From positions 124,001 through 188,000 of the forward strand of contig NZ_VNHW01000003.1 in assembly GCF_008124835.1 (NCBI RefSeq): DNA of 64,000 nucleotides. Reading direction: 5' to 3'. The DNA comes from Blastococcus xanthinilyticus. GTDB lineage: Bacteria; Actinomycetota; Actinomycetes; Mycobacteriales; Geodermatophilaceae. Below the pieces are notes generated by a model, which was given only the letters and a program-made list of their open reading frames with translations, did not search any database and was not told the origin of the DNA. A program made the translations under genes and the position numbers. Positions 21,507 through 40,824 of this stretch are shown in pieces; position 1 is the first letter of the stretch; every line of letters begins with the position of its first letter.

Positions 21507-21565
21507 CAATGCACCCAGCCGTGCCGCCGTCGCACCGCGACCGTCCACGGGCCGGGGGCCGGGCG

Positions 21566-25148: not shown

Positions 25149-27787
25149 CGGTCGCCCGCGGCCCTCCGCCGGGTGCCGGCCAGCAGCCGGCCGGCCTGCT
25201 CGGCGACGCGGCGGCGGTCCACCTTCGACTGGTGCCGGATGTCGACCGGCAGGCGGTCGGCGACCAGCACCGCGGCGACGTCGACGCCGGCAGCGGCCCG
25301 CACCGCGTCGGCCAGGTCGGGCGCGGCCACGGCCATCCGCAGCCGCCTCGCCTGGCGTGCGCGCGGCCGGCCGGAGGCGCCACTCTCGGACCCGTCGAGG
25401 ACGACGACCACCACGACGACCTGCCCGCCACGGGGGCCGACGCCGACGGCCGCGGCGGCGGTCACGCCGGGGACCCGCTCGGCCCGTTGCTCGATGCCGA
25501 CCGGGGTGAGCGGCCCTTCGGCCGTCGAGATGACGTGCGGCAGCCGGCCCTCGACCCAGAGCCGGCCCTCGGCGTCCAGGTGCCCGACGTCGCCGGTCCG
25601 GTGCCAGCCCGCCGGCCGCGCGGCCGCCCGCTCGGTCGCCCAGAGGGCGTCGTAGCGATCCTTGACGTGCGCGGCGCGGACACAGATCTCTCCCGCGGTG
25701 CCCGGGGTACCGGTCAGCGCGCCGTCGGCGGCGCCGTCCGGGCCGAACGGGCTGATCGCCACCTCCACCCCGGGCAGCGGCCGGCCCACGCACACCCCGT
25801 TCCCGTCACCGGCCTCGGCGATCTCGGCCGCCGAGACGTCGGTGACCGGCAGCGCCTCGGTCATGCCGTAGGGCGTGTGGGCCTCGGCCGAGGGCAGGAC
25901 GTCGCGCAGCGCCGCCAGCAGGCCGACCGGCACCGGCGCGCCGGCCGACATGAGCAGCCGGACCCGGCCCAGCGCGGACCGCTGGCCGGCGGTCAGCTCC
26001 GGCGCGGTGGCCACGACCCGGCGCAGCGCGGCCGGTGACGCGAACACCACCGTCGCGTCGACGGCGGAGACTGCCTCGGCCAGCGCGGACGCCGTCAGGG
26101 AGCCGGGGGCGGTGACGTCGATGTCGGGCACCGCCGAGCCGATGCCCAGCGCCGGGCCGAGCAGCGCGAAGGGCGCGAAGGCCGCCACCAGGCGGTCCTC
26201 GCCGGTCAGCCGGTAGGTGGCGCGTACCAGGGCCAGCTGGGCCGACGCCTGGCGCCGGGTGTAGACGACGCCCTTGGCCGGGCCGGTGGCACCGGAGGTG
26301 AACAGGACCGCGCAGTCGGCGTCCCCGGACGGGACCGCGGGCACGGGGGCGTCCCGGCCGGCGTCCTCGATCTCGGGAAGCGTGCGGACGGCGCCGAGCA
26401 CCCGCCGGGCGGCCGGGCGCACGGAGCTCGCGGCGATGCGGGTGGCGGGCAGGCCCATGAGCCGGGCGGCGGCCAGCCCGGCGGTGCCGCAGACGACGTG
26501 GTCGACCGCGGCACCGCGCAGCGCCCGGCGCATCCCGCGGAAGCCCAGGCCCTTGTCGGCGACGACCACCACCGCGCCCGCGCGCCAGACCGCGTAGACC
26601 GCCGCCGTGAGGTCGGCGGAGGGCTCCACGAGCAGCCCGACCCGGTGCCCGGGCCGGACCCCGGTCGCCGCCAGCCCGGCAGCGAGGCGCTCGACCCGCC
26701 GGTTCAGCTCCGCCCAGCTCACGGTGCTCCCGCCCACCTCGACGACGGCGGGGGAGGCGTCGTCGGCGCGCTCGGTCAGGGCGGCCCACGGCGGGCGGGG
26801 GTCCTCGTCCGCCGCCGGGGTCGGGCGGCGGCCGCCGTCGGCCGGGCCCGGCAGCGCCGAGCCGGGCAGCGACGGGTCCGGCAGCTCCGCCACCCACTGC
26901 GCGACGGCGGTGGCGTACTGCGGTGCGTCCTCGGGGAGGAGGTGCGAGGCGCCTTCGTACCGGTGCAGCGCGGCGTGCGGCAGCCGGCCGCGCAGGTCGG
27001 TGAGGTAGCGCTCGCCGAAGACCGGGTCGCGGGGGCCCCAGAGCAGCAACGCCGGGACTTGAAGGCTGCGGATGCCCTCGGCGATGGCCTCCTGCGCCGG
27101 TCGGGAGGGGTGCCCCGTGGAGAAGGGGATGTCGGCCACGAAGTCGCCCACGGCACGCCGGCGGGCGGCGGAGCCGTACGGCGCGGCGAAGGCGTCGCGC
27201 ACGTCGCGGGGGAGCGGCGGGCGGGACAGCGCCGTCGTGGCCCGCACGAACACCGGGGTGCCGACGGTGACGGCCGATCGCACGCCGGGGGCGTGCGCGA
27301 GGCGGATCAGCGCCGGGCCGAGGTCGCCGGGCGGCATGGCCACCGCGGTGTTGGCCAGCACCACGCCGCGCAGCTGCGCCCGGTGCTCGAGCGCCCAGCC
27401 CAGGGAGATGACGCCGCCCCAGTCGTGCCCCACCGTGACCACCGGGCCGGTCACCCCGAGCGCCGCGGTGAGGTCGCCGAGGTCGGCGACCCGCTGCTCC
27501 AGCGACCGCAGACCGGGCAGCCGCTGCGACCAGCCCATGCCGAGCTGGTCGGGAGCGATCACCCGCCACCCCGCGGGCGCGCCGGCCAGCAGCCGGCGCC
27601 AGAGGTAGGACCAGGTGGGGTTGCCGTGCACGCACAGCAGCGTGCCCACCGGGTTCTCGACGCCGTTGTCCAGGACGTGCCAGTCGTGCTCGGTGCCGGT
27701 CCGGTCGGCGACGGTCAGGTGCCGGGACCACGCGGGGTCCAGGCCGGGCAGCGCCGGGGGCACGGGAGTCGCGTTGCCCGCCGTCAC
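25145..27787 (-). CDS. oleBC: OleBC fusion: beta-lactone decarboxylase plus beta-lactone synthetase
   Basis: GTG 27787 overlaps the oleA stop (GTGA) and gives 880 residues. Residues about 1-300 are an alpha/beta hydrolase of haloalkane-dehalogenase type: HGNPTWSYLWRR, nucleophile Asp in VTVGHDWGGV, and His in EGASHLLPEDAP. This is OleB, which turns a beta-lactone into an alkene and CO2. After a proline-rich linker, residues about 335-880 are an AMP-forming ligase: LFTSGATGPAKGVVYT, YGMTEALPVTD, GWHRTGDVGHLDAEG and the C-terminal Lys in IRHQSKVDRRRV. This is OleC, which closes beta-hydroxy acids to beta-lactones with ATP. Fused OleBC proteins are known in actinomycetes. Both active sites look intact. 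Confidence 0.93.
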   Translation of the reverse strand: MTAGNATPVPPALPGLDPAWSRHLTVADRTGTEHDWHVLDNGVENPVGTLLCVHGNPTWSYLWRRLLAGAPAGWRVIAPDQLGMGWSQRLPGLRSLEQRVADLGDLTAALGVTGPVVTVGHDWGGVISLGWALEHRAQLRGVVLANTAVAMPPGDLGPALIRLAHAPGVRSAVTVGTPVFVRATTALSRPPLPRDVRDAFAAPYGSAARRRAVGDFVADIPFSTGHPSRPAQEAIAEGIRSLQVPALLLWGPRDPVFGERYLTDLRGRLPHAALHRYEGASHLLPEDAPQYATAVAQWVAELPDPSLPGSALPGPADGGRRPTPAADEDPRPPWAALTERADDASPAVVEVGGSTVSWAELNRRVERLAAGLAATGVRPGHRVGLLVEPSADLTAAVYAVWRAGAVVVVADKGLGFRGMRRALRGAAVDHVVCGTAGLAAARLMGLPATRIAASSVRPAARRVLGAVRTLPEIEDAGRDAPVPAVPSGDADCAVLFTSGATGPAKGVVYTRRQASAQLALVRATYRLTGEDRLVAAFAPFALLGPALGIGSAVPDIDVTAPGSLTASALAEAVSAVDATVVFASPAALRRVVATAPELTAGQRSALGRVRLLMSAGAPVPVGLLAALRDVLPSAEAHTPYGMTEALPVTDVSAAEIAEAGDGNGVCVGRPLPGVEVAISPFGPDGAADGALTGTPGTAGEICVRAAHVKDRYDALWATERAAARPAGWHRTGDVGHLDAEGRLWVEGRLPHVISTAEGPLTPVGIEQRAERVPGVTAAAAVGVGPRGGQVVVVVVVLDGSESGASGRPRARQARRLRMAVAAPDLADAVRAAAGVDVAAVLVADRLPVDIRHQSKVDRRRVAEQAGRLLAGTRRRAAGDR

Positions 27788-28809
27788 CAGGCGATCTCGA
27801 GGCAGGAGGCGTTGAGGCCCGAGCCGATGCCCATGAGCAGCACCCGGTCGCCGTCGGCGAGCGTGTCCTGCTGGGCGGCCAGCGTGAACGGCACCGACGC
27901 CGGCCCCAGGTTGCCCCTGGTCGGGAAGGTCGTCGGCACGAGGGCGGGATCGATCGAGAACCGGTCGGATATCGCCTGGGTGTGCACCTTGGAGACCTGG
28001 TGGATGATGTAGCGGTCCATGCCCGCCGCCCAGTCGAACTCCCCGGCGGCGTCCGCCCAGAGGTCCTCGGACAGCGCCAGCCCCGCGTCCAGCAGGCCCT
28101 TCAGGTCGGTGCGCATCATGTCGTTGTCGCCGATGCACAACTCGTGGTGCTCGGTTCCGGCCCGGCTCACCGCCCCGACCAGACGGTGTCCCTCCGGATG
28201 CCGGTCGGCGCGGCCCAGGACCATCGCGGCGGCGCCGGAGCCCAGCGTCAGCGTGGCGAACTGCGCCAGCACGTCGCGCGACACGGTCTCCGGTCGGTTC
28301 AGCTGGTCGATGGTGCGCTCCTGCACGATCCGGGAGTCCTCCCCGTTCACGATCAGCGCGTAGTCGACCATGCCGGAGTCGAGCATCGCCGCGGCCAGCT
28401 CCATGCCGTTGATGAAGCCGAGGCAGGCGTTGGTCACGTCGAAGTTCTGGCAGGACCGCGGCAGGCCGAGCTCGTGGTGCACGGCGACGGCGGTCGAGGG
28501 CTCCAGGTGCTTGCGGCTGACCGAGGTGTTGATCATCACCCCGATGCGCGCCGGGTCGACGCCGCTCTCGCTGATCGCCTTGGCCCCGGCCATGGCGGCG
28601 CCGTCGACGAACGTCGTCCCCTCCGACCACCAGCGGCGCTCGCGGATCCCGGCGAGCCGCTCGAGCAGGCCGCCGCGCAGCCCCACCCGCTGGTAGGTCT
28701 CCCGGAGCCGCTCGTCGAAGTCGTCGGAGCTGATCACCTGCGACGCATCCGCCGTCTGGACCGCCAGGACGGCGGTGTTGGCGAAGCGATGAGTCGTGTT
28801 GCCCGTCAT
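27784..28809 (-). CDS. oleA: OleA: thiolase-fold long-chain acyl-CoA condensing enzyme
   Basis: The 341-residue protein starts at ATG 28809. The active-site Cys129 is in NFDVTNACLGFING; Glu103 (HLEPSTAV) lies exactly 26 residues before it, as Glu117 and Cys143 do in Xanthomonas OleA. The His and Asn of the thiolase fold are in YIIHQVSKVH and TRGNLGPASVP. OleA joins two long-chain acyl-CoAs head to head without reducing the beta-keto group. It is the first gene of an operon with oleBC and oleD, each joined by a four-base overlap. FabH is the alternative, but the Glu-Cys pair and the neighbours favour OleA. Confidence 0.93.
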   Translation of the reverse strand: MTGNTTHRFANTAVLAVQTADASQVISSDDFDERLRETYQRVGLRGGLLERLAGIRERRWWSEGTTFVDGAAMAGAKAISESGVDPARIGVMINTSVSRKHLEPSTAVAVHHELGLPRSCQNFDVTNACLGFINGMELAAAMLDSGMVDYALIVNGEDSRIVQERTIDQLNRPETVSRDVLAQFATLTLGSGAAAMVLGRADRHPEGHRLVGAVSRAGTEHHELCIGDNDMMRTDLKGLLDAGLALSEDLWADAAGEFDWAAGMDRYIIHQVSKVHTQAISDRFSIDPALVPTTFPTRGNLGPASVPFTLAAQQDTLADGDRVLLMGIGSGLNASCLEIAW

Positions 28810-28945
28810 GTCCAGCTTCCAGCTCTGAGTCGGGCCGACTCTCCGCTGGCCGCCCGGTTCGGCACGCCGTACCCCGCCGGGGTGCCGGTCTACCCCGACG
28901 TGTCGACCGCCACGAAACCGTACCGCCCGCCCAGCACCCCCGGCC

Positions 28946-28996
28946 CAGGAGGCTCTGCCCCTAGGGCGGCGCCGGAACCGTGGGCGGAGCCTCCTG
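28946..28996. terminator. Hairpin between the hydrolase operon and the ole operon
   Basis: CAGGAGGCTCTGCCC (28946-28960) pairs with GGGCGGAGCCTCCTG (28982-28996) with one imperfect position and a 21-base loop. It follows the minus-strand hydrolase stop by 57 bases and precedes oleA by 137 bases. It probably ends or attenuates the upstream operon. No T-tract. Confidence 0.55.
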
Positions 28997-29052
28997 TGCC
29001 CGGGCGGGCGACGGGCCGTCGCACGCGTGGTGGGGCCACGGGTGCGGGCCGG

Positions 29053-30195
29053 TCAGCCGGCGACCGCCATCGGCGGTGCGTCGGTCGTGCGTGCACCGGG
29101 AGCCGAGCGGTGCCGGTCGAGGAAGTCCAGGAACGTCGGGAAGACCTCGTCGGCCACGTGCTCGCCCATGAAGGGGTCCTGGTGCCCGTAGCCGGGCAGC
29201 ACCGCCAGCTCGTGCCGGCCCGGCGCCCGCTTCTCCAGCTCCCGGTGGCAGACGATGTTCGAGTCCCGGAAGACGTTGTTGCGGTCGCCGGTGGCGAGCA
29301 GCACGGGGGTCTCGATGGCGGCGGCGTTCGCGAGGTAGTCGTCGGGCAGCCGGTCGTACCGGGGGTCACCGGGCGTCATCTTCACCGCCCGGCCGGCCGC
29401 GACCATCTTCCTGACGTGCCGGTAGTAGTGCATGCTCGTCGCCCCGTAGAGGTCGCCGCCCCGCCGGTGCGTCACGTCGGCGAGCTTCTCGTGGCTGTAG
29501 AGCGCCGGCCAGCCGCTGCCCCACATCAGGCTGAGCATGTGGCAGTCGGGCTGGTCGCACTCGCCGTGGAACGCCGAGACGGCCTTCGAGAAGAGCTTGC
29601 CGCGCGACGGGCCCGGGTCGGCGTACCACCGGGGGTTGAGGTAGGGCAGCCCGATGACGTCCTCCACCAGCACCGGCGCCAGCTGCAGCTTCACCCGCGA
29701 CCAGCCCGGTACCCGCGGGGTCAGGCCGACGCTGTTGGCGATGACGCTGGCGACCCCGTCGACCGCGCCCCCGAACAGGCTCATCAGGAACGACACCGCG
29801 CCCAGGCAGTGGGAGATGACGTGGATCGGCTTGCCGTCGGTCTCCCGCCGCATCAGCTCCAGCGCCGGGGGGAAGTCGTACAGCGCGATGTCGTCCATCG
29901 TGTAGCGGTTCCTGAACAGGTTGTACGAGTACCGGTTGCTCATCCGGAAGTCGATGGTCCAGACGTCGCGGTAGCCGTTGTCGAGCAGGTAGGTCACCAG
30001 GTTCCGGTGCTCCGGCATGATGAACATGTCCGTCGACGTGGTCAGCCCGTGGACGATCAGCACCGACTCGGTCGCCTGCGTGCCGCGGCTGAACCGGTGG
30101 AGGCCCATGCCCAGGCCGTCCCCGGTGGAGAAGGAGTAGGTCCGGACGTCGGCGTCCGGTACTCCGTCGAGGGTGTAGAGCGGGATCTCACGCAC
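29053..30195 (-). CDS. Alpha/beta hydrolase with a cysteine nucleophile
   Basis: GTG 30195 stands behind AGGAGGAGG and gives 380 residues; the frame overlaps the end of the preceding gene by eight bases. The fold is clear: VLIVHGLTTSTDMF (oxyanion region), DVWTIDFRMSNRY, then the elbow ISHCLGAVSF. The position normally held by Ser in GXSXG is Cys130. An Asp in LLATGDRNNVF and a His in LPGYGHQDPFMGEH complete a triad. As I recall, similar cysteine-containing hydrolase domains are fused to long GMC oxidoreductases in other actinomycetes; here the GMC protein is a separate gene of the same operon. The substrate is likely a hydrophobic ester, thioester or lactone, by inference. No signal peptide. 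Confidence 0.8.
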   Translation of the reverse strand: MREIPLYTLDGVPDADVRTYSFSTGDGLGMGLHRFSRGTQATESVLIVHGLTTSTDMFIMPEHRNLVTYLLDNGYRDVWTIDFRMSNRYSYNLFRNRYTMDDIALYDFPPALELMRRETDGKPIHVISHCLGAVSFLMSLFGGAVDGVASVIANSVGLTPRVPGWSRVKLQLAPVLVEDVIGLPYLNPRWYADPGPSRGKLFSKAVSAFHGECDQPDCHMLSLMWGSGWPALYSHEKLADVTHRRGGDLYGATSMHYYRHVRKMVAAGRAVKMTPGDPRYDRLPDDYLANAAAIETPVLLATGDRNNVFRDSNIVCHRELEKRAPGRHELAVLPGYGHQDPFMGEHVADEVFPTFLDFLDRHRSAPGARTTDAPPMAVAG

Positions 30196-32191
30196 CGAGG
30201 ACCTCCTCCTGGGTGGTGGCGGACCGCTGCTCGGCGAGCCGGGTCCAGTGGACGTTGGGGTCGACCTTGTCCCGGCGGGCCGGGTCCTTCGACGTCTTCG
30301 TGTGCATGTACCGGAAGCCGTCGTGGGCGATGCAGATGTCGTCGAGCTCGGTGACCAGTTCCTCCAGCACCTGCTCGTCCATGCCCCCGGCGCTCATGCC
30401 CTGGTAGAACATCAGCTCGCAGAACTGGTTGCCGCGGCCGCCGGTGGCCAGGTACTCGCTGGTGATGCTCTTGACGTACACCGAGATGAAGGTGAAGCAG
30501 TCCCGCTCGGTGCGGTAGCGCCGCATCAGCTCGTAGGTCTCGCGGAACAGCTGCTCGAACCGGTCCAGCGGCGCCAGGACGATGAACATCCGGGTCGGGT
30601 CACCGACGGTCGAGTCGAGCACCTTGTCGGTGAAGAACTCGACGTTCTTGACCGTGGCGTACATCGGGCTGAACAGGACGCCGGTCATCCCCGCCAGCTT
30701 CAGCGCCCGGTCGACCCGGGCCGGGAGCCGGCCGCCGACGTAGCCCAGGCCGTGCAGCGCGTCGTAGGACAGGCGGTCCCGGGCCTTCGCGTACGCGGTC
30801 TGGTCGGTGGGGTGGTAGGCCGAGAACTGGCCCATCCCGAAGCTCCCGCCGCCCCTGCGCGGGAAGTCGATCCACACCCCCCGCTCGTACTGCGCCTCCC
30901 CGGGGTTGCGGATGGCGTGCGCGGCCCCCGAGATGAACGCCTCGACGTCCCAGTGGTGCTGCTGGTGGTTCTTCAGGACGGTGCGGTACTTGTCGATCTC
31001 GATCAGCCGGACGGTGAGGGTGGCCATCACGCCGTGCCGGCCCAGCCCGCACAGCACCTTGTGGAAGTCGTCGCGGTTCTCCTCCCGGCTGCAGGCGACC
31101 AGGTCGCCGTCCCAGGTGACGTACTGGAGCCGCTCGATCTGGTCGACGAAGAGCCCGAAGCGGTGCGACGCCGGGCTGATCCCGCCCACGGACGCGAAGC
31201 CGCCGGCGGTGATGTGGTTGTGGTCGCCGATGACCGGCAGCCCCAGGCCCAGCTCGGAGAGGTGGTCGTCGACCTGCGCGGAGACGGCGCCGGCCTGGAT
31301 GGTCGCGGTCATCGCCTCCCGGTCGACCTCGAGGATGCCGTCCAGCTTCTCGGTGAGCAGCATGCTGCCGCCCTCGGTGAGCACGAGGTCGTTGCTCGAG
31401 TGCCCCTTGCTGCGGATCGACAGCCGCTCGCCGAGCTGCTTGGCCTCGCGGACCGCGGCGACGATGTCCTCGGTGGTCTGGGGCAGGTAGATCTTCCGGG
31501 GGAACCTCGGCGGCATGGTCGGGTTGGAGATGCGCTCCCAGTCGTAGCCGAGGCTGTCGATGCTGTCGTGCGCGAAGGTCTCGTGGCTGCTGATCCGCCG
31601 CTTCCAGAGGGGCGCCCCGCCGGCCGGCGCGATCGGCGGCGGGTTCTCCGCCGACGAGGAGTCGCTCCTCTGGTGGGGCAGGCCGTTGCTCACGCGGCGG
31701 CGGGTGTCGGTCATGGGGGCGTCCTCTCGGAGGTGGGGTGGGCGGGACGGCGGGGCGGCGACCCGCGTGCGCAGGGCGGCCTCGAAGGCGCGGTAGCCGG
31801 CCAGGATCGGGCGGCGGCCGAGCGGCAGGAGCAGGGGGGCGAGCAGGCCGGTCGCGGTCTCGGACTGGGTGAGGCGGCACCGGTCCGGCCCGAGCGGGGT
31901 GATCTCGAACCGCCGGTCGACGTCGAACAGGCCCCGGATCGGCTGGGCGGCCAGCCAGCGCAGCGAGTACGGGGGGTCGACCACCGTCAGCGTCGGCCGG
32001 AAGGGGACCGGCAGGCCGTCGAGCCGCAGCCGGATGCGCAGCCGGCTGCCCACGACGAGCGCGCCCTCCGCCCGGCGGATGAACGGGTTCCAGGCGGGGA
32101 ACGTCGCGAAGGCGGTCAGCTCCTGCCAGACCCGCTCCGCCGAGCCGGGCAGCTCGGCCGAGGACCGGATCTCGCCCGCGCCGCCGGTCAT
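30188..32191 (-). CDS. SRPBCC-domain / FAD-linked oxidase fusion protein
   Basis: ATG 32191 overlaps the preceding stop (ATGA) and the frame stays open for 667 residues. Residues about 5-145 are a polyketide-cyclase-like SRPBCC pocket (VWQELTAFATFPAWNPFIR, PYSLRWLAAQPIRGLFDVDR). From residue 160 on lies an FAD-binding type 4 (PCMH) oxidase: LPQTTEDIVAAVREAKQLG, SIRSKGHSSNDLV, HNHITAGGFASVGGISPASH and GRHGVMATLTVRL, similar to cytokinin-dehydrogenase-like proteins. An internal ATG (31714, residue 160) has its own site GAGAGG at 31723-31728, so a 508-residue oxidase may also be made. The SRPBCC part cannot end on its own, as there is no stop between the two. Confidence 0.8.
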   Translation of the reverse strand: MTGGAGEIRSSAELPGSAERVWQELTAFATFPAWNPFIRRAEGALVVGSRLRIRLRLDGLPVPFRPTLTVVDPPYSLRWLAAQPIRGLFDVDRRFEITPLGPDRCRLTQSETATGLLAPLLLPLGRRPILAGYRAFEAALRTRVAAPPSRPPHLREDAPMTDTRRRVSNGLPHQRSDSSSAENPPPIAPAGGAPLWKRRISSHETFAHDSIDSLGYDWERISNPTMPPRFPRKIYLPQTTEDIVAAVREAKQLGERLSIRSKGHSSNDLVLTEGGSMLLTEKLDGILEVDREAMTATIQAGAVSAQVDDHLSELGLGLPVIGDHNHITAGGFASVGGISPASHRFGLFVDQIERLQYVTWDGDLVACSREENRDDFHKVLCGLGRHGVMATLTVRLIEIDKYRTVLKNHQQHHWDVEAFISGAAHAIRNPGEAQYERGVWIDFPRRGGGSFGMGQFSAYHPTDQTAYAKARDRLSYDALHGLGYVGGRLPARVDRALKLAGMTGVLFSPMYATVKNVEFFTDKVLDSTVGDPTRMFIVLAPLDRFEQLFRETYELMRRYRTERDCFTFISVYVKSITSEYLATGGRGNQFCELMFYQGMSAGGMDEQVLEELVTELDDICIAHDGFRYMHTKTSKDPARRDKVDPNVHWTRLAEQRSATTQEEVLGA

Positions 32192-34128
32192 GCCATCCCT
32201 CCGGGCAGTGCCTCGTCCATCCGGTGCGCCTCGTCCATCCGCTGCGCCTCGTCCATCCGGTGCGCCTCGTCCGTCCGCGATGTCGCCGCGCCGGTGGCCG
32301 GCGGGGTGCGCGGGATCCGGATGGGTGGCTCGATGAGGAACGGGTGCAGTTGCCCGTCGGCGGGCTGGAACCGCTCCCGCTCGCCGGCCCGCCAGTCCGG
32401 CCGGCGCTCCCACCCGCGGGGCACCCGGGGCAGCCCGACGGGGAAGACGGTCAGCGTCTCGTCGGGCTCCAGGCGCAGGCGCAGGAAGTTGCGGCGGTCG
32501 GGGATCGCCTGGCCGGCGAACAGCTCGTTGACGTTGAGCCGGGCCCGGTCGGCCAGCAGCAGGTACCACGCGACGAGCTCGGCGGCCAGGATCCCGCCGC
32601 CGACGAACACCAGGAGCACGACCAGCGCCAGCGACCACGGGGCGGGCACCGCCAGCACCTCGGCGGTCAGCGTCACCGCCAGGCGGATCACCGAGACGGC
32701 CAGCGCCAGGTGCGCCAGGCCGTGCAGCAGCCCCACGGTCCGGCCGCGCCAGCGGCCCATGTCCTGGGTGAAGGCGATCGCGCCGCCGACGACGACGAGG
32801 CCGAGCAGCAGAGCCAGGATGCTGTCGGCGAGCCCGCCGGCCAGGCGAGCCCAGCCGGCGTCGCGCAGCGCGGCGTCCACGGCCCTCAGGTCGGCAGGGA
32901 GTCCGCGCGCCGGTTCGCGGAGCGCCGCGCCCAGCGCGACGGCCAGCACCGCGTAGATGCCGCCGAGCAGCCCGGCGAAGGCCGGGGTCGTGAACGGCAG
33001 CCGCAGGATGCCCCACCGGAGCCGCCGGGAGTCCTCCGGTGTCGGGTAGACCGCACCCTGGGTGTACCGCACGGACGGGCTCTTGCTGCGCGCCCTGCTG
33101 GTCGGCGGTGGCACCTGGATGGACGTCGGGAGGTGGTGCGTCGCGGAGAGGTAGGCGCCGCCGCCGCCGGCGGTGATCCGCTGCGCGAGGTCGGCCGCCT
33201 CGTACCGGGAGTAGTGGTGCCGGTCGCCGGTCAGCGCCAGCCGCACGCCGGCGCCCCGCGGCCGGATGACCGTCCGCTCCAGGAAGTCCAGCGTCGCGTA
33301 GGCCTCGCAGTCCTCGTCGGTCGCCGCGACCCAGCTGGGCTTGGCCGTGCACAGCAGGATCGCGTCGCCGGGCTGCAGCTCCCGGGCGATCTCGGTGAAG
33401 TAGGCCAGCTGGGCCTCGTCGAGGTAGGTGTCGAACTGGATGTCGATGCCCCACAGCCACCACCGGTCCGACAGCCGGGTGGCGAAGTAGCTGCGGGCCT
33501 GGCGGGTCCGCCAGCCGCCGATCCACCGGCGCTGGCAGAAGGTCCGCATGAACGCGGTCAGCCCGTCGTACCAGTCGTGGTTGCCGGGCACGGCCTGCAG
33601 GAAGGGCGCGTCGGGCTCCTTGCCGGGGAGGGCGGCCCGGTACGGGCCGATCAGCCGGTTCTCGTACTCGTCGACCGACGCCGCGGGGTAGCACTCGTCC
33701 CCGCCCATCACCAGGAGCCGGCCCCGCCGGGTCGTCGTGGCCTCGCCCTCCTGCGGCGCGAGGTCCAGCGTGGGGCGGGAGAGCAGCGCCGCCACCGAGT
33801 ACGTGGCCTCGAAGCTGTCGCCGAGGTCGGAGACGTAGTCCAGCCAGAGGTTGCCGTCGTCGTCGCGGGTCCCGGCGCCGCCGAGGTCCAGGTAGCCGCC
33901 GGGGGAGATGCCGCCCATGAGCTCGCGCTTGTCGTTGTACTGGCCGAGGACGCCGCTGATCGCCACCTGCTTCGCCGTCTGGAGGAGCAGGCGCGGCTCG
34001 AGCCATCGGGTGCCCTTCCGCTGCTCGAAGGTGTCGGCGGGGTCCTCGTCCTGCGACGGACGGGGGACGGTCTCCCGCTCCACCGGCCCGGGGTCGGGTG
34101 ACCGGGGTGGCTCGGCGGTGGTGGTCAT
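32188..34128 (-). CDS. Metallophosphoesterase with C-terminal membrane domain
   Basis: ATG 34128 overlaps the MMPL stop (ATGA); 646 residues. The calcineurin-like motifs are in order: DYVSDLGDSF near residue 97, LLVMGGDECYP near 140, AVPGNHDWYDG near 183 and LALTGDRHHYSRYE near 295. Residues about 360-540 hold five or six membrane helices (FAGLLGGIYAVLAVALGAAL; ILALLLGLVVVGGAIAF), followed by a soluble tail. No signal peptide, so the catalytic part should face the cytoplasm if the helices follow positive-inside. The tail ends in repeats of DEAHRM encoded by 18-base units. The natural substrate is unknown; a lipid-linked or cyclic phosphodiester is conceivable. Confidence 0.8.
   Translation of the reverse strand: MTTTAEPPRSPDPGPVERETVPRPSQDEDPADTFEQRKGTRWLEPRLLLQTAKQVAISGVLGQYNDKRELMGGISPGGYLDLGGAGTRDDDGNLWLDYVSDLGDSFEATYSVAALLSRPTLDLAPQEGEATTTRRGRLLVMGGDECYPAASVDEYENRLIGPYRAALPGKEPDAPFLQAVPGNHDWYDGLTAFMRTFCQRRWIGGWRTRQARSYFATRLSDRWWLWGIDIQFDTYLDEAQLAYFTEIARELQPGDAILLCTAKPSWVAATDEDCEAYATLDFLERTVIRPRGAGVRLALTGDRHHYSRYEAADLAQRITAGGGGAYLSATHHLPTSIQVPPPTSRARSKSPSVRYTQGAVYPTPEDSRRLRWGILRLPFTTPAFAGLLGGIYAVLAVALGAALREPARGLPADLRAVDAALRDAGWARLAGGLADSILALLLGLVVVGGAIAFTQDMGRWRGRTVGLLHGLAHLALAVSVIRLAVTLTAEVLAVPAPWSLALVVLLVFVGGGILAAELVAWYLLLADRARLNVNELFAGQAIPDRRNFLRLRLEPDETLTVFPVGLPRVPRGWERRPDWRAGERERFQPADGQLHPFLIEPPIRIPRTPPATGAATSRTDEAHRMDEAQRMDEAHRMDEALPGGMA
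32210..32281 (-). repeat. Four 18-base tandem repeats in the metallophosphoesterase tail
   Basis: Units start at 32210, 32228, 32246 and 32264; the first three differ at one base and the fourth is diverged at its end. On the minus strand they encode DEAHRM/DEAQRM hexapeptides. An in-frame minisatellite whose copy number may vary between strains. Confidence 0.85.
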
Positions 34129-36572
34129 ACCGGGCTCCTGGTGTCGTCGGCGGGCGACGCGGTGGTCGGCGTGGGTGTCGGCGTGGGTGTCGGCGTGGTC
34201 GGTGGGGCGGCGGTGGTCTCGACGGCCGGTCCCGGCCGCGGGGCGGGGACGCCGGCCGGGACCCGGACCGCCTGGCCGGGGCGCCGCCGGCCGGGCAGCC
34301 ACCAGTTCCAGGCGCCCATGAGGCGCATGCTGGCCGGCACCACCAGCAGCCGGATGACGGTCGCGTCCAGGGCGATCGCCACCGCGAGGCCCAGGCCCAG
34401 CTGCTGCAGGGGCAGTATCGACGTGAAGGCGAAGGCGCCGAAGACCGCGACCATGAGGACGGCGGCACCGGAGATCAGCGGTCCGGTGCGCGCGACGCCG
34501 CGCGCCACGCTCGCCGTGCCGTCCCCGGTGGCCAGCCACTCCTCCCGCACCCGGCTGAGCAGGAAGATCTCGTAGTCGGTGCTCAGGCTGAACAGCAGCG
34601 CCAGCAGCAGCACCGGGACGATGTTCTGCAGGTGCGTCGACGGCTCGACACCGAGCAGGCCGGCCCCGACGCCGTCCTGGAACACCAGCACGAGCAGCCC
34701 GAACGCGGCCGCGGCCGACAGCAGGTTGACCGCGATCGCCTTGACCGGCAGGAGCAGCGACCGGAAGGCCAGCAGCAGGACCACGAAGATCACGCCGAGC
34801 ATGAGCGCGACCGCCCAGGGCAGCCGGTCGGTGATCGCCTGGTTGCTGTCGACGCCCTCGGCGGTCTCGCCGCCGACGACCGCCGCGGCCGCCGTCCCCT
34901 CGACGGCCTGCGCGGCCGCGGCCCGGACCTCGCCGACCAGCTCGCGGGTCGGGGCACTGGCGGCCGGGTCGGCGGGGACGACGTCGAGCACCAGCCGCCG
35001 CCCGTCGGCGGAGACGAAGTGGTCGACGGTCGCCCGCGCGTCCGCCGGCAGCGCGCCGCGCACCGCGGGGTCGAGGGCGGCGAGCGGGTCGCCGGAGCCG
35101 GCCTGGCCGAGCACCCCGAGGGCCGAGTCGACGCGGAGGGTGCCGTCGAGGTCCGCGAGCCGCTGTTGCAGCCGGGTCAGCTCGTCGCCGAGGTCGGTCG
35201 CGGCCAGCGGCTCCGGGCTCTGGACGACCACGGACACCGGGGAGGCGGCGCCGGCGCCGAACTGCTCCTGCAGCAGGTCGTAACCCTGGCGCACCGGCGA
35301 GCTCTCGGGCACGATCCGCGCGTCGGCGGTGAAGACCTGCAGGTGCAGCGCCGGCCACGCCACGGCGGCCAGGACCGCGACGCTGGCCAGCAGCACCGTC
35401 CACGGCCGCCGCATGATGCGGAGGGTGAAGGACTCCCAGGCCGAGCCCTGCGCCGCGGACCGGCGGCGGGGGAGCGGTACCCGCAGCGCGTCGATCCGCC
35501 GGCCCAGCAGCAGCAGGATGGCGGGCAGCACCAGCACGCTGGTCAGGGCGGCCATGGCGACGACGACCATGGCCCCGAGCGCGATGGAGTGGACGACGCC
35601 CAGCGGCACCACGAACAGCGTCGACATCGCGAGGACGATGACCAGCGCCGAGGAGAGCACCGTCTCACCGGAGGTGCGCAGGGTCGTGGCCACCGCCCGC
35701 ACCGGTGTCGCGCCGCCGTGCAGCTCGGCGGTGTAGCGGCTGATCACGAACAGCGCGTAGTCCACCCCGACGCCCAGCCCCAGCATCGTCACCGCGCTCT
35801 GCACGAACACGGACAGCTCGAGCCAGTTCGTGACCACCGTGAGGATCCCGAAGGCCAGGACGATCCCGGTGACGGCGACGACCAGGGAGACCACCGACGC
35901 CACGACGCTGCGGTACAGCAGCAGCAGGATGAGCAGGATCAGCGGCAGGGTGACCAGCTCGGCCCGGGTGAGCCCCTGCTCGCTGAGCTCGGTGACCTCT
36001 CCCCAGAACGAGGCCGAGCCGACCAGCGACACCTGCAGGCCCTCGTCGGCCCAGCGCTCGGTGAGCTCCTGCTGCACCTCGGGCAGCAGCTGCCGGGCGC
36101 GGCCGTCGTCCAGGTCCAGCGAGACGAGGGTCAGCACGGTGCTCCGGTCCTCGCCGACGAAGGCCTCCCGGGCCGGATTCCCCAGCGTCGTCCAGCCGTA
36201 GGCGCCGCTGACCTCGAGCTCGCCGCGGCCGGTGACGTCGGCGGTCACGTCGCGCACGCGCTCGGCGAACTCGGCGTCGTCGGCGGTGAACCGGGTGTCC
36301 TGCACCAGCACGGTGACCGCGGCGGCGCCACGTGCGAGGAACCCCTCCCGCACCTCCTCGACCGCCTGGTGCGACTGCGAGCCCTCGACGTACCAGCCGC
36401 CGCCGGTGAGCAGGCCGGGCAGCGGCCGGCCGATCACCGCGAAGGCGGCCAGCAGCACGACCCAGGCCGCCAGTACCCACCAGCGGCGCCGGTGGAGCAG
36501 GCCGGCGACCCGCTCGGTCGACGAGCCACCCGAGGCGTGGCGGCCCCCGGGCGGCCTGGTCGGGAGCGTCAC
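34125..36572 (-). CDS. MMPL/RND-family transporter
   Basis: GTG 36572 overlaps the GMC gene stop (GTGA) and gives 815 residues. The layout is that of MMPL lipid exporters: one helix near residue 32 (WWVLAAWVVLLAAF), a soluble periplasmic domain, helices 2-6 with GVGVDYALFVISRY, then the same again: a helix near residue 385, a second soluble domain, and a helix bundle with FSLSTDYEIFLLSRVREEW. The DY dyads of the proton relay are kept in both halves. Such proteins export lipids and other hydrophobic molecules. Its place between an oxidoreductase and hydrolytic enzymes suggests export of their product. Confidence 0.92.
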   Translation of the reverse strand: MTLPTRPPGGRHASGGSSTERVAGLLHRRRWWVLAAWVVLLAAFAVIGRPLPGLLTGGGWYVEGSQSHQAVEEVREGFLARGAAAVTVLVQDTRFTADDAEFAERVRDVTADVTGRGELEVSGAYGWTTLGNPAREAFVGEDRSTVLTLVSLDLDDGRARQLLPEVQQELTERWADEGLQVSLVGSASFWGEVTELSEQGLTRAELVTLPLILLILLLLYRSVVASVVSLVVAVTGIVLAFGILTVVTNWLELSVFVQSAVTMLGLGVGVDYALFVISRYTAELHGGATPVRAVATTLRTSGETVLSSALVIVLAMSTLFVVPLGVVHSIALGAMVVVAMAALTSVLVLPAILLLLGRRIDALRVPLPRRRSAAQGSAWESFTLRIMRRPWTVLLASVAVLAAVAWPALHLQVFTADARIVPESSPVRQGYDLLQEQFGAGAASPVSVVVQSPEPLAATDLGDELTRLQQRLADLDGTLRVDSALGVLGQAGSGDPLAALDPAVRGALPADARATVDHFVSADGRRLVLDVVPADPAASAPTRELVGEVRAAAAQAVEGTAAAAVVGGETAEGVDSNQAITDRLPWAVALMLGVIFVVLLLAFRSLLLPVKAIAVNLLSAAAAFGLLVLVFQDGVGAGLLGVEPSTHLQNIVPVLLLALLFSLSTDYEIFLLSRVREEWLATGDGTASVARGVARTGPLISGAAVLMVAVFGAFAFTSILPLQQLGLGLAVAIALDATVIRLLVVPASMRLMGAWNWWLPGRRRPGQAVRVPAGVPAPRPGPAVETTAAPPTTPTPTPTPTPTTASPADDTRSPV

Positions 36573-38998
36573 GCCCCGCTCCCGGAGGTGTCGAGCACGC
36601 GCGGCCCGTAGATGGTCCACAGCTCGCCGAGGAACACCGAGCCGAACGCCTGCAGGGCGCGCACCGCGTCACCGGGCTCGGGGCCGGTGGCGCGCAGGGT
36701 GGTCAACTGCTCCAGGAAGTCGGGCAGGTGGATGGTGATGATCCCGCTGCCGAGCAGGGCAGCGCCCTCGTCGGACTCGGCGTGCCCGGCGTACAGGCGG
36801 ACGAAGAGGGTGGAGGTGTCCCGCCAGACGTCCCAGCCGGGGTCGTCGTGCACGTCCTTGACGCCGGAGAGGGTCACCGGGTTGCCGGCTCCGTCGCGCA
36901 GGAGGAGCCGGTAGAGCATCCGCGCCCGCCGGGTGTCCCCGAGGTCGGCCGGCGTGTGCACGAAGAGGTTGAAGATCCCCCGCTCGACCGGCAGCCGCCC
37001 GCCGAGGGCGTCGCAGTCGACGTGGCCGACCGCGGTGCCGGCCCGGTCGGGGTCGGTGAGGAACCGGGTGACGTCCTCGATGGTGATCGTCAGCCGGAAG
37101 GACAGGGCGGTGCCCTCGGCGCGGCCCCGGTCGTACCCGCGCTGGGAGTCGTCCTCGCCGAGGGCGACGAAGCCCTTCATCTCCTCGGTGAACCACAGGC
37201 GGGGCGCGCGTTCCGGGGCCGGTGCCGGCCGGGGGATCGCCGGGGCGGCCGGCCGGTGCCCGTCCTGCGGTGCGGTGGAGCGGACCACGGTGCCGCGCCG
37301 CGCGTGCTGGTCGAGCAGGTGGTCGGCCAGCCGGTCGGCGAAGGCCGCGATGGTCAGCGAGGGGTTGGCGCCCACCGGCCCCGGCATCGCCGCGCCGTCG
37401 GCGACGTACATGCCCGGGTGGCCGAAGACCTCGCCGTAGGAGTCGACGACGCCCTCCCGCGGGTGCCGCCCCATGGGCGCGCCGCCGAGCGGGTGGACCG
37501 TGATGACCCGCCGGCGCAGGTGCCAGATCGGGTTGTCCCGGAACCCGGCGCCGAGCTCGCCCGCGAGGTCCCGCATGACCCCGCGGACGCCCTCGAAGTA
37601 GGCGGTCGACGTCGCGCTGGTCCAGTCGACCTGCAGGTGGCCCCGGCGCAGCGAGAGCACGCCGTCCGGGACGTCCCGGCCCATGCCGAGCAGCGGCAGC
37701 GACCCGGCGGAGAACGCGGCGTCGCCGAGCAGCGCCTGCAGCTCGGACCCGAGGCCGGAGCGCGGGGAGCCGCTGAGCCGGGCCCAGATCCGGCCGGCCG
37801 CGAACCGCGCCATGCGGGCCGCCGCGGCGGGGGCGCCCGCCGCCTCGACCATCCACTCGGCGAAGGCGGGGTAGCCGGCGTCCTCCACGTAGGAGCCGCG
37901 GCCGGCCGCGCCGTCGGTCTCGTCGGGGACCCGGATCCGGCTGGTGATGACCGGTCCGCGGCTGCCCTCGATCCGGCGGGGGGTGCCGTCGGCGTGCGTG
38001 GCGCCCAGCACGAAACCGAGCAGGTCGCCGTTGCCGCTGAAGCGGGTGCCCAGAGCCCGCGACAGCGCCGGGAACGCGGCCCGGTTGCGGAGCAGGAGGA
38101 ACGGCGTGCCGAGAGCGCCCGCCGCGAGCACGAGCCGGTCCGCGGTCAGCTCGGTCACCGGCAACCGGGCGGTCCGGGTGCGGTGTCCCTCGGCCTCGGG
38201 GGCGTGGGTGACGTAGGAGATCCGGTAGCCGCCGCCGGACGGCGCGATGCGGCGGACCTCGCTGCGGGTGCGGAGCACCGCACCGGCGTGGGCGGCGGCG
38301 GACAGGTACGTGTGGTCGAGGGTGTTCTTGCTGCCGTAGTTGCAGCCGATGTCGCACTCCCCGCACAGCCGGCAGGTGGTGCGCAGCCGGCCGTGCAGGT
38401 TCGGGTACTCGTACGGCGCGATCGCCTCCCCGGGAACGGGCGGACCGCCGTTCCCGGCGAAGCTCACGGCGAGGTTCGGCAGGTCCCAGTCCAGGCCGAG
38501 CCGCCGCGCGGCGTCCCGCATCGCGACGGTCTTCGGCGTCGACGCGTAGGGCTCGGACCCCACCGGGTACGGCCGCGCCCGCAGCATCCGCTCCACGGCG
38601 TCGTAGTGCGGGTCGAGGTCGGCGCGGCTGATCGGCCAGTGCTCGTAGCCGCCGCCGGGCAGCGGGCTCTCCTCGACGAACCAGCGTTCGTCCTTGCGGA
38701 TGAGGACGTTGGCGTAGATCAACGACCCGCCGCCCAGGCCGCTGGAGACCACCGCCTCCAGCCCCCGGAACGACCACACGTCGAACAGGCCCTGCAAGCC
38801 CTCGCTGGGGTCCCAGAGGTTGCGCTGCATCTCCAGCGGGCTGCGCGCGAAGGAGCCGGGAGGGTAGGTCTTCCCGCGCTCCAGCACGCAGACGCGGAGC
38901 CCGGCGGAGGCCAGCCGGTAGGCGGTCACCGATCCACCGAACCCGCTGCCGACGATCACGGCGTCGAAGTGCTCGGGCGGCTCGTGGGTTGCAGTCAC
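36569..38998 (-). CDS. GMC-family oxidoreductase, cholesterol-oxidase-like
   Basis: GTG 38998 (site GGAGA upstream) opens an 809-residue protein. FAD-binding signature: FDAVIVGSGFGGSVTAYRL at residues 10-30. Then GLEAVVSSGLGGGSLIYANV (GMC signature 1), a cysteine cluster CRLCGECDIGCNYGSKNT near residue 205, and TVHPLGGAPMG with GMYVADGAAMPGPVGANPS at the catalytic end. The cysteine cluster is typical of long GMC proteins related to bacterial cholesterol oxidase. The last 250 residues (from about 560) form an additional soluble domain that I do not recognise. It is the first gene of a five-gene operon starting at a sigma-70-like promoter. No signal peptide. A sterol-like or long-chain alcohol substrate is inferred. 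Confidence 0.88.
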   Translation of the reverse strand: MTATHEPPEHFDAVIVGSGFGGSVTAYRLASAGLRVCVLERGKTYPPGSFARSPLEMQRNLWDPSEGLQGLFDVWSFRGLEAVVSSGLGGGSLIYANVLIRKDERWFVEESPLPGGGYEHWPISRADLDPHYDAVERMLRARPYPVGSEPYASTPKTVAMRDAARRLGLDWDLPNLAVSFAGNGGPPVPGEAIAPYEYPNLHGRLRTTCRLCGECDIGCNYGSKNTLDHTYLSAAAHAGAVLRTRSEVRRIAPSGGGYRISYVTHAPEAEGHRTRTARLPVTELTADRLVLAAGALGTPFLLLRNRAAFPALSRALGTRFSGNGDLLGFVLGATHADGTPRRIEGSRGPVITSRIRVPDETDGAAGRGSYVEDAGYPAFAEWMVEAAGAPAAAARMARFAAGRIWARLSGSPRSGLGSELQALLGDAAFSAGSLPLLGMGRDVPDGVLSLRRGHLQVDWTSATSTAYFEGVRGVMRDLAGELGAGFRDNPIWHLRRRVITVHPLGGAPMGRHPREGVVDSYGEVFGHPGMYVADGAAMPGPVGANPSLTIAAFADRLADHLLDQHARRGTVVRSTAPQDGHRPAAPAIPRPAPAPERAPRLWFTEEMKGFVALGEDDSQRGYDRGRAEGTALSFRLTITIEDVTRFLTDPDRAGTAVGHVDCDALGGRLPVERGIFNLFVHTPADLGDTRRARMLYRLLLRDGAGNPVTLSGVKDVHDDPGWDVWRDTSTLFVRLYAGHAESDEGAALLGSGIITIHLPDFLEQLTTLRATGPEPGDAVRALQAFGSVFLGELWTIYGPRVLDTSGSGA

Positions 38999-39038
38999 GA
39001 CGCATCTCCGCTCTCGTCGGCACCCCGGTGCGGGAAGC

Positions 39039-39067
39039 TGTATAGCGCTGTGATAAAGGCGGGCCAA
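39039..39067 (-). promoter_or_regulatory. Promoter of the GMC-MMPL operon
   Basis: Read on the minus strand, TTGGCC (39067-39062) and TATACA (39044-39039) are separated by exactly 17 bases, resembling a sigma-70 -35/-10 pair. Transcription would start near 39032, leaving a leader of about 34 bases with GGAGA before GTG 38998. The stretch is the most AT-rich in the neighbourhood. Confidence 0.5.
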
Positions 39068-39236
39068 CGGGGTATGACGGGCCGAATCCGGCCGGAGTCG
39101 TGCCGTTACTCCTCGCGGTCGACCGGTCGCGTTCAGGCGCCGGATGGACGGCGCCGGGGAGGTCGGGCCCCCGCCCAGGGCCCGGCGCGGGTCATGCAGC
39201 GGGCGCCGTCGCGTCGCCGCTGGCAGGGTGGGCGGC

Positions 39237-40160
39237 ATGGCTTCCTCCTCTCCCGTCGTCGTGGTGACCGGTGCGAACGGACTGGTCGGCACCGCGGTGT
39301 GCCGGGCGCTCGTCGAGCGGTCGGCGCAGGTCCGCGCCGTCGTCCGCCGAGCCGGCAGCGCGCCGGCGCTCGACGGGGTCACCGAGCACGTCGGCGACTT
39401 CGCCGACGAGGCGTTCGCCCGCGAGGTGACCCGGGGCGCCGACGCGGCCGTCACGACGGTCCACCCGATGGGCTCGCCCCGGGAGGTGCAGCACCGGGTG
39501 GGCGCCGAGGGCACCCCGGTGCTCGCCCGGGCCGCCCGGGACGCGGGGGTGGCCCGGCTGGTGCACGTGTCCACCGCCGGGGTGTACGACCGGTCGGCCG
39601 GCCTGGGAGACGTCGCCGAGGACGGCGCGCTCCTGCCCGACGGCAGCGGCGCCTACCCCGACACCAAGAACGCCGCCGACCTGGCGCTGGCGCAGGTGGA
39701 CGGGCTCACGACGGTGCTGGTCCGCCCGCCGGCGATCCTGGGCGCCGGCGAGACGTCGGTCTGGAACACGCTGCGCCCGCAGGCTGTCCGGGACGGCGAT
39801 CGCCGAGCGAACCCGGCGCAGACCTGGGCCTGGGTGCACGTCGACGACCTGGCGGCCTTTCTCGCGGACGTCGCGACGGGCGCCGTCGCGACCGCCGAGG
39901 ACCCGGAGCGGGGCCCGGTCGCCGGGAGCACGACCCCGGTGATCGTGGCGGGGGAGCCGGCGACGTGGCGGGACTACCTGGGCACGGTGGCCGATGCGGT
40001 CGGCGTCGCCCCGGAGTGGACCGACGAGCCGGTGTGGACCGGCCAGCTGAGGGCCGACCGCGCCCGCGGGTGGGGCTGGGCGCCGCGGGTGGGCCTGGCG
40101 CAGGCCATGGACGAGCTGCGGCAGGGCCTGACGACGCCGGCGCCCGCAGACGCGTCCTGA
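39237..40160 (+). CDS. NAD(P)-dependent epimerase/dehydratase family protein
   Basis: ATG 39237 gives 307 residues. The Rossmann motif VTGANGLVGTAVCRAL is at the N-terminus and the catalytic Tyr-Lys in GAYPDTKNAADLAL near residue 140; HVSTAGVYD supplies the Ser/Thr. It is an extended SDR, acting on a sugar nucleotide or on a keto/hydroxy compound; the sequence does not tell which. Bases 39651-39900 of this gene are duplicated at 43326-43575. It is divergent from the GMC operon with a 238-base spacer holding that operon's promoter. The gene itself appears intact. Confidence 0.85.
   Translation: MASSSPVVVVTGANGLVGTAVCRALVERSAQVRAVVRRAGSAPALDGVTEHVGDFADEAFAREVTRGADAAVTTVHPMGSPREVQHRVGAEGTPVLARAARDAGVARLVHVSTAGVYDRSAGLGDVAEDGALLPDGSGAYPDTKNAADLALAQVDGLTTVLVRPPAILGAGETSVWNTLRPQAVRDGDRRANPAQTWAWVHVDDLAAFLADVATGAVATAEDPERGPVAGSTTPVIVAGEPATWRDYLGTVADAVGVAPEWTDEPVWTGQLRADRARGWGWAPRVGLAQAMDELRQGLTTPAPADAS
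39651..39900 (+). repeat. 250-bp direct repeat, copy A (inside intact epimerase gene)
   Basis: These bases match 43326-43575 without gaps, with about 16 mismatches by my reading (about 94 percent identity). The copies are in the same orientation and offset by 3675 bases. Copy A is codons 139-221 of the intact gene. Confidence 0.9.
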
Positions 40161-40174
40161 CCCCTCGACGGGGC

Positions 40175-40824
40175 ATGCGGCGACGCCGTCTCCCCGTCCG
40201 CGCGGCTGACGCGGTGCTGCCGGTGGTGTTCTTGCTCGCGGTGTTCGATGGGCTGCTCCCGCCCTTGCCGAGCGAGTCGGTGGTGATCGCGGTGGCGGCG
40301 TTCAGCTCGGCGGGCAACGGCCCGCAGCTGGGGCTGCTGGTCCCTACCGCTGCGCTGGGGGCGCTCCTCGGGACAAGCTCAGCTACGCGCTGGGCCGACG
40401 CGCCGGTCTCCGCCGGTTGGTCGAGGGCCGGGGTGGCCGGCTGCGGCAAGCGCTGGAGTGGGCCGCCGGCGGACTGGCCCGGCGTGGCGCGGTCATCGTT
40501 CTCGTGGCGCGATACATCCCCGTCGGCAGGGTCGCGGTCAACCTGACAGCCGGAGCCACCGGCTTCCGCGGCGCCGGTTCGTCGCGCTGACGGCTCTCGG
40601 GGCGTCGTCATGGGGGGCCTACTCGGTGGCGGTGGGCGCACTCGGTGGGGCACTGGGTGGAGGATCAGCCACTGCTGAAAGCGCTGGCGGGGATCGCCTT
40701 CGCCGTGGTGCTGGGCCTGGTGGTCGACCGCCTCGTGCGCCGTACGGAGCCGGCCGCCAGGTGCCGTCGCGGGTCGAGCGCGGCCGGAGCGGATCGGGCC
40801 CACCCGGCATCCGGCCGGTGCTGA
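40175..40824 (+). pseudogene. DedA-family membrane protein pseudogene with three frameshifts
   Basis: Translation from ATG 40175 gives VLPVVFLLAVFDGLLPPLPSE, a DedA/SNARE-associated N-terminus, until about 40370. A missing base there moves homology to another frame: DKLSYALGRRAGLRRLVEG and VARYIPVGRVAVNLTAGATG, the DedA signature. A second shift near 40565 leads to RRRFVALTALGASSWGAYSV, and a third near 40660 to VEDQPLLKALAGIAFAVVLG, ending at TGA 40822-40824. Intact relatives are polytopic undecaprenyl- or phospholipid-flipping proteins. Three independent shifts make sequencing error unlikely, so I regard it as decayed. The five-prime end lies 14 bases after the epimerase gene. Confidence 0.75.

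Follow-up and report, generated by a model that had tools for sequence, protein, structure and literature searches.

The 64,000-nucleotide stretch of Blastococcus xanthinilyticus DNA considered here (the window; positions 124,001 to 188,000 of NZ_VNHW01000003.1, contig C3 of a 4.6-Mb genome) has a G+C content of 74.6% and contains five consecutive minus-strand open reading frames (ORFs), running from 38998 to 29053, that are assigned in order to a GMC oxidoreductase, an MMPL transporter, a metallophosphoesterase, an SRPBCC-FAD oxidase, and an alpha/beta hydrolase (Table 1). Successive genes overlap by 4, 4, 4, and 8 bases, the first three overlaps reading GTGA, ATGA, and ATGA; a purine-rich stretch lies upstream of the start of each gene, and G+C at third codon positions (GC3) is 0.97-0.99 for all five. 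The coupled five-gene unit described in an earlier reading of the letters alone (the sequence-only reading) is thus confirmed. The single sigma-70-like promoter of that reading is there as a sequence, TTGGCC-17-TATACA, but with only 8 of 12 consensus bases it is weak and not above chance, and a scan of 27600-40600 that required at least 9 of 12 bases gave no match, shuffled sequences averaging 0.2. Behind the last gene, a strong hairpin without a T run is a possible transcript end. A search for tRNA genes found none, and an Rfam search gave no match.

Table 1. Positions in the window of the operon, its domains, and its neighbors
Feature	Position	Strand	Remarks
GMC oxidoreductase	38998-36569	-	809 aa (P0001)
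GMC catalytic part, cholesterol-oxidase-like (P0001 residues 1-590)	37229..38998	-	Pfam, PDB-chain profile match
Cys motif C209-x5-C215-x3-C219 (plus C212), putative Fe-S site	38342..38374	-	
Extra domain (GMCct), residues 591-809 of the GMC protein	36569..37228	-	predicted beta strands and C-terminal helix
MMPL/RND-type transporter	36572-34125	-	815 aa; Pfam
Divergent metallophosphoesterase, C-terminal hydrophobic segments	34128-32188	-	646 aa; alignment and motifs
SRPBCC-FAD oxidase frame	32191-30188	-	667 aa; Pfam
SRPBCC (Polyketide_cyc2) domain, in frame with next gene	31715..32191	-	Pfam
FAD_binding_4 oxidase/dehydrogenase, sugar-lactone-oxidase-like	30188..31714	-	possible own start at 31714
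Alpha/beta hydrolase, acid-lipase-like fold	30195-29053	-	380 aa; Cys130 candidate nucleophile, His338
Weak promoter-like TTGGCC-17-TATACA	39067-39039	-	8/12 consensus bases
Strong hairpin after hydrolase gene, no T run	28930-29052	-	z -2.28
Segment absent from oleA-SDR interval of G440	28876..39215		59 bp in G440
oleA	28809-27784	-	published OleA pattern; not part of module
oleBC fusion	27787-25145	-	Pfam alpha/beta hydrolase and AMP-binding; not part of module
oleD	25148-24156	-	OleD model; not part of module
SDR, divergent neighbor of oleA in G440	39237..40160	+	not part of module

A core of this gene set recurs in other genomes. Comparison was made with 22 GMC-selected loci, 18 from 16 other genomes of a phylum sample (best GMC match better than 1e-74) and four from the four other genomes of the same family that encode a long GMC protein; several of these loci are cut by contig ends. 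By profile scan, the extra domain that follows the catalytic part of the GMC protein is found in 19 of the 22, a metallophosphoesterase in 15 (the family of the window in eight, one of them weak, PhoD in three, and the calcineurin type in four), and an acyl hydrolase in 14 (alpha/beta in 11 and patatin in five, with both in two loci); phosphoesterase and acyl hydrolase occur together in ten. An acetoacetate-decarboxylase-like (ADC-like) gene is present in six. Pfam confirms PhoD in L133 and L144, the calcineurin type in L136, ADC in L031, and patatin in L031, L035, L131, and L145. The three phosphoesterase families presumably share a superfamily. One locus (L142) repeats the order of the window from GMC protein and extra domain through SRPBCC and FAD oxidase to hydrolase, the oxidase being 60% and the hydrolase 67% identical. 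In a second variant, seen in L136, L137, L139, and L141, the GMC gene is accompanied by a calcineurin-type phosphoesterase and a redox protein, which in L137 shows a weak response-regulator match ahead of a Pyr_redox domain. The full five-gene set was not found elsewhere in the genomes and loci searched; what is conserved is the core of GMC protein, extra domain, phosphoesterase, and acyl hydrolase. A description of the set was likewise not found in the open literature, as covered in part by crude term matching of titles and the beginnings of abstracts.

In distant phyla, parts of this core are fused. A tblastn search of plasmids with the GMC protein gave 141 records, and six of the first eight were examined. 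In the Azospirillum, Rhizobium, Bernardetia, and Leptospira records, GMC part, extra domain, and Cys hydrolase form a single ORF with the same three domains in the same order, including the C-x5-C-x3-C and HCxG motifs. These proteins differ from those of the window in being one polypeptide, in their identity of about 30-33% over the GMC part and extra domain, and in the lack of an MMPL profile match in their stretches; their existing annotation is alpha/beta fold hydrolase or GMC oxidoreductase. A metallophosphoesterase gene directly precedes the fused ORF in Azospirillum, a short SRPBCC gene follows it in Rhizobium, and the Pseudonocardia and Arthrobacter records have the hydrolase as a separate gene. 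The extra domain also shares an ORF with patatin (L031:4162-5685, L035:4955-6508, L131:7810-9372, L145:2733-4217, and L184:6026-7540) or with the hydrolase (L133 and L140) and is free-standing in L036, L136, and L137; judged from these arrangements, it is mobile among proteins.

The origin of the individual genes appears to be mixed. The nearest relative of the GMC protein is 69% identical (L129), that of the phosphoesterase 68% (L131), that of the hydrolase 80% (L130), and that of the FAD oxidase 60% (L142), and the best-scoring MMPL protein among 23 genomes searched reaches only 37% identity (G103), on a contig without the GMC gene of that genome. As the nearest relatives differ by gene, the best reading of the five genes is as a mosaic version of the recurring module. 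The same scatter, together with the occurrence of the full set in the window only, would also fit an accidental assembly, that is, an accessory island in which five genes with different purposes have been joined by compactness. This is quite unlikely given the start-stop overlaps at all four junctions and the recurrence and fusion of the core partners in distant phyla.

Pfam supports the assignment of the first gene to the GMC family, and the best PDB relatives of its profile are cholesterol oxidases (e.g. 1b4v and 1coy), whose HPLGG His and VG-x-NP (VGVNP) Asn align with H502 and N545. Differences from these enzymes are also evident. The score of the window protein on the cholesterol oxidase model NF058674 is 188.7 bits against a cut-off of 850, the GMC part being far below this cut-off in each of four proteins tested; the window protein has an extra C-terminal domain; and in the alignments displayed the cholesterol oxidases have no Cys at three positions where the window protein has C209, C215, and C219. 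This C-x5-C-x3-C triplet is present in 29 of 31 module GMC genes, including that of the window (20 of 20 among 15 aligned rows, the four fused proteins, and Pseudonocardia, and nine of 11 others). The spacing is that of Cys212, Cys218, and Cys222, the ligands of the 3Fe-4S cluster in the catalytic subunit of the Burkholderia cepacia FAD glucose dehydrogenase (FAD-GDH; 6a2u), another GMC enzyme, for which a catalytic His/Asn pair has also been proposed, according to the published description (PMC6719666). Although distant in sequence, 6a2u is among the hits of the GMC profile, matched over positions 2-294 in an output that does not display the residue-level Cys alignment. When a short query containing the Cys motif was used, the matches listed were ferredoxin-like sites of iron hydrogenases (E about 0.4), and 6a2u was not among them. 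Of the two flavin oxidases proposed by the sequence-only reading, the GMC protein is uncertain, its Cys motif suggesting a dehydrogenase. The extra domain is modeled with a mean pLDDT of 88.3 as beta strands and a long C-terminal helix; a PDB search with this domain returned no chain reaching E 0.001, so that no known fold could be assigned.

The hydrolase falls just below the Pfam cut-off for Abhydrolase_1 (25.4 versus 25.8). The Cys of its HCLG motif is kept in all 14 aligned hydrolases, and Cys130 and His338 are invariant. The structures closest to its predicted fold (mean pLDDT 82.8) are those of gastric and lysosomal acid lipases, at TM scores of 0.65-0.72. Lysosomal acid lipase cleaves cholesteryl esters, and the GMC protein is nearest to cholesterol oxidase; the operon could accordingly serve in the catabolism of a sterol-, triterpenoid-, or wax-ester-like compound that the cell imports. 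The hydrolase would free an alcohol, the GMC protein would oxidize it, and the MMPL protein would be an importer or a bystander. In the L140 cluster, an SDR that matches 3Beta_HSD and a gene of the Oxidored_FMN family also point in this direction. Such a route would, however, leave the phosphoesterase without a role, the GMC protein is far under the cholesterol-oxidase cut-off, and no set of genes for cleaving steroid rings was seen among the ORFs scanned, which cover part of the window and include just one FAA_hydrolase gene, at 21509-22429. On balance, a catabolic role of this kind is considered unlikely.

A different substrate class is raised by the weak match of the hydrolase to class III PhaC. 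In a polyester or beta-hydroxyacid pathway, a PhaC-like Cys hydrolase would release hydroxyacids, the GMC protein would oxidize them, and a partner resembling acetoacetate decarboxylase would decarboxylate the resulting keto acid; the ADC-like genes in six of the 22 loci (identified by Pfam in L031) and the presence of PhaC/PhaE near the fused protein of Rhizobium are consistent with this. But the PhaC match amounts to 16.6 bits on TIGR01836 against a cut-off of 365.3, by which membership was rejected, the hydrolase fold is nearer to the acid lipases, and nothing in the window matches the ADC profile, making such a pathway very unlikely here.

The assignment of the third gene rests on alignment and motifs. 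The window protein has no Pfam match of its own; PF00149 is matched by six of the seven members of the phosphoesterase alignment (best 3.4e-5), the window protein not being among them. The motifs D-x-G-D, GGDE, GNHD, and GD-x-HH are present in it, and its hydrophobic segments number four or five. In one relative (L034:2839-5655), PGTHD and SGKHYY replace the metal-site motifs PGNHD and GDxHHY, and that protein is possibly inactive. Many actinobacteria, among them Micromonospora, Actinoplanes, and Actinokineospora, have this family of membrane metallophosphoesterases but no GMC partner for it, as in L043 and L071; a GMC match lies nearby in two of 80 named phosphoesterase loci (L040-L119, the best 80 of 554 confirmed).

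In the fourth gene, an open frame does run across SRPBCC domain and FAD oxidase, as the fusion claimed for this gene requires. It may nevertheless be readable as two genes, because the two are separate genes in one frame in L142, with TAG-ATG between them, and because an ATG at 31714 within the frame of the window is preceded by a ribosome-binding-like GAGAGGA. The oxidase resembles sugar 1,4-lactone and alditol-type FAD oxidases in its FAD_binding_4 domain and GHS motif, whose His (H264) is a possible covalent FAD site. It differs from them in its SRPBCC partner and in its score on the sugar 1,4-lactone oxidase model TIGR01678 (77.2 versus 396.8 bits), and its likeness to these and related oxidases is limited to the FAD half. 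The MMPL protein matches PF03176 in two stretches (291.4 against a gathering score of 20.5), as do MmpL3 and other MMPL lipid exporters in having this domain, but at 290.9 bits on the MmpL3 model NF052608 (cut-off 1400) it was rejected as an MmpL3.

The neighborhood of the operon bears on how it came to its present position. Downstream lies a complete oleA-oleBC-oleD operon (24156-28809) with 4-base overlaps within. Its OleA fits the pattern EPxx[AS]x(14,18)DxxNACL, as given in PMC7158056. Against the model for olefin beta-lactone synthetase, whose cut-off is 900, the oleBC fusion scores 263.4 bits. The OleD model has a cut-off of 580; OleD reaches 326.8 bits on it, whereas the SDR at the other side of the five genes, with its start best placed at 39237, reaches 62.9 bits and was rejected as an OleD. 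In another genome of the family (G440), oleA and the SDR gene are divergent neighbors. A single 900-bp piece of that genome matches the SDR side of the window up to 39216 (88%) and the ole side from 28875 (87%), with 10,340 bp of the window (28876-39215) in place of 59 bp. Besides the five genes, this 10.3-kb segment contains 217 bp ahead of the GMC start and 177 bp past the end of the hydrolase gene; at least 66 bp of the sequence upstream of oleA is kept. The five genes thus look like an insertion between oleA and the SDR gene, loss from other genomes being the less simple alternative. At the segment ends, no terminal direct repeats longer than chance were found; an 11-base inverted match, which may be due to chance, was seen. 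A phage origin was set aside, since neither the phosphoesterase nor the hydrolase, the two proteins searched, has a PHROG match.

Variation in the same interval was seen in other genomes. In G399, whose OleA is the closest to that of the window (91%), the oleA-SDR interval (L166:10171-19901 and L167:1-7259) holds about 17 kb of other genes, including those for a transporter, a subtilase, an MFS protein, a LuxR-type protein, an aldehyde dehydrogenase, and a methyltransferase; the interval therefore looks variable. In G417, the SDR gene sits beyond oleD. Elsewhere in the window, at 41581-42413, an ArsR-type regulator gene overlaps an AHSA1-type SRPBCC gene that has no relation to the operon.

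The adjacency of the ole genes had led the sequence-only reading to suggest an alkene, beta-lactone, or related lipid as the substrate. A sample of 112 family genomes was searched, with a limit of 1e-60 for OleA and the SRPBCC-FAD oxidase. OleA is present in 59 of them, and the family may thus commonly make olefins. The gene for the SRPBCC-FAD oxidase is found in the genome of the window and in none of the other 111. Full-length GMC relatives (best piece above 500 bits) occur in five, namely the genome of the window, G434, G435, G436, and G448. That the operon modifies and exports an Ole product (a long-chain alkene, beta-lactone, or ketone) could be argued from its position directly beside a complete oleA-oleBC-oleD operon and from the presence of OleA in all five of these genomes. 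Yet OleA is in more than the GMC-bearing genomes anyway, as the count of 59 indicates, and four of the five belong to a genus (g239) in which 24 of 26 genomes have it. GMC and OleA genes are on different contigs in G434, G435, and G436 and about 45 kb apart in G448. Outside the family, one of 16 GMC-bearing genomes has OleA, on another contig, and a profile scan found OleA in none of the 22 GMC-selected loci. Conversely, ten other ole loci (11 stretches) have no match to the GMC, extra-domain, phosphoesterase, hydrolase, patatin, ADC, or FAD-oxidase profiles, with a weak MMPL match in one (L175). The five genes include no homolog of the Ole proteins of the olefin pathway as described in PMC7158056 and PMC7064751, oleA retains its own upstream sequence, and both insertion and adjacency are seen in the genome of the window only. 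On the evidence of family distribution, synteny, GMC loci, and GMC-bearing genomes, the olefin link is rejected and an Ole-product role is very improbable. The position of the operon looks like a one-off insertion that says little about its product, and the substrate is probably not an Ole product.

Taken together, these comparisons give a chance just short of even that the five genes are a mosaic form of a recurring bacterial lipid-processing module inserted between oleA and the divergent SDR gene. The best reading of the module is one of ester cleavage, phosphate removal, and alcohol dehydrogenation; its version in the window is extended by an MMPL transporter and another flavin enzyme. The Cys alpha/beta hydrolase would cleave an acyl ester of a bulky hydrophobic alcohol and the membrane phosphoesterase would take off a phosphate group; the GMC protein would oxidize the freed hydroxyl, with its beta-rich extra domain presenting the lipid, and the electrons would go by way of an Fe-S cluster to a carrier instead of straight to oxygen. 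The product may be held in the SRPBCC domain while the lactone-oxidase-like enzyme carries out another flavin-dependent oxidation on it, and the MMPL protein may carry it across the membrane. The proposal, made in the sequence-only reading, of a dedicated, coupled set for a hydrophobic substrate holds in so far as the core recurs and is partly fused, with a hydrolase near acid lipases and a GMC protein near cholesterol oxidase, and fails in its olefin part.

Several observations weigh against this proposal. The MMPL profile matches in none of the 22 GMC loci, the FAD oxidase in three (one weak), and SRPBCC in two, so the five genes may not form one pathway. The lipid export attributed to the MMPL protein therefore rests on the window; in G448, an MMPL protein of 34% identity is encoded about 14 kb from the GMC gene, outside the scanned locus. 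Three loci (L132, L143, and L146) have neither phosphoesterase nor hydrolase, and although L143 and L146 are short contigs, L132 has only the GMC gene and is not near a contig end. The profiles used in the locus scan were seeded partly from the same loci. In the hydrolase, the invariant residue after strand 7 is Asn306, whereas alpha/beta hydrolases of this kind often have Asp there. The order of the steps is not readable from the sequence.

Electron transfer through an Fe-S cluster faces difficulties of its own. The Cys triplet was not found in L138 or in L042, where the GMC protein matches in two pieces, and a Pfam search of the five operon genes found neither the hitchhiker nor the multihaem c (cytochrome) subunit of the Burkholderia enzyme. 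Moreover, the triplet is present in all 12 distant GMC relatives (33-38% identity; L186-L197) used as controls, which were picked from the family and phylum match lists and whose matches are confined to the GMC part. All 12 carry it in the form C-x2-C-x2-C-x3-C. The triplet was therefore ruled out as a mark of the module and marks a wider GMC clade instead. To regard the GMC protein as a putative Fe-S dehydrogenase is still a fair reading; because the controls share the triplet, it would extend to this wider clade, a large group of GMC proteins that may bind Fe-S clusters.

The operon noted in the sequence-only reading is thus real, and the guess at its general character was a reasonable one, while the recurring unit is a smaller core, taken to be an uncharacterized module for the processing of lipid esters and lipid phosphates and for oxidation. 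It recurs in Actinomycetota, while plasmids of two Alphaproteobacteria, one Bacteroidota species, and Leptospira encode it as one fused polypeptide, and no pathway is assigned to it in the resources searched. Tentatively, it may represent a widespread bacterial lipid-oxidation system that has gone without description, in which an Fe-S, electron-exporting GMC dehydrogenase would carry a beta-rich domain of a new kind that binds lipid and would work together with an acyl hydrolase of the Cys type, or a patatin, and a phosphoesterase drawn from three metallophosphoesterase families. In the window, this system would have acquired an MMPL exporter as well as another flavin enzyme. The tempting inference from neighboring genes is corrected, as the olefin genes are no guide to function. 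If the Cys motif does hold an Fe-S cluster, the GMC clade would consist of dehydrogenases that feed a carrier, and the assay by which the substrate might be found would change accordingly.

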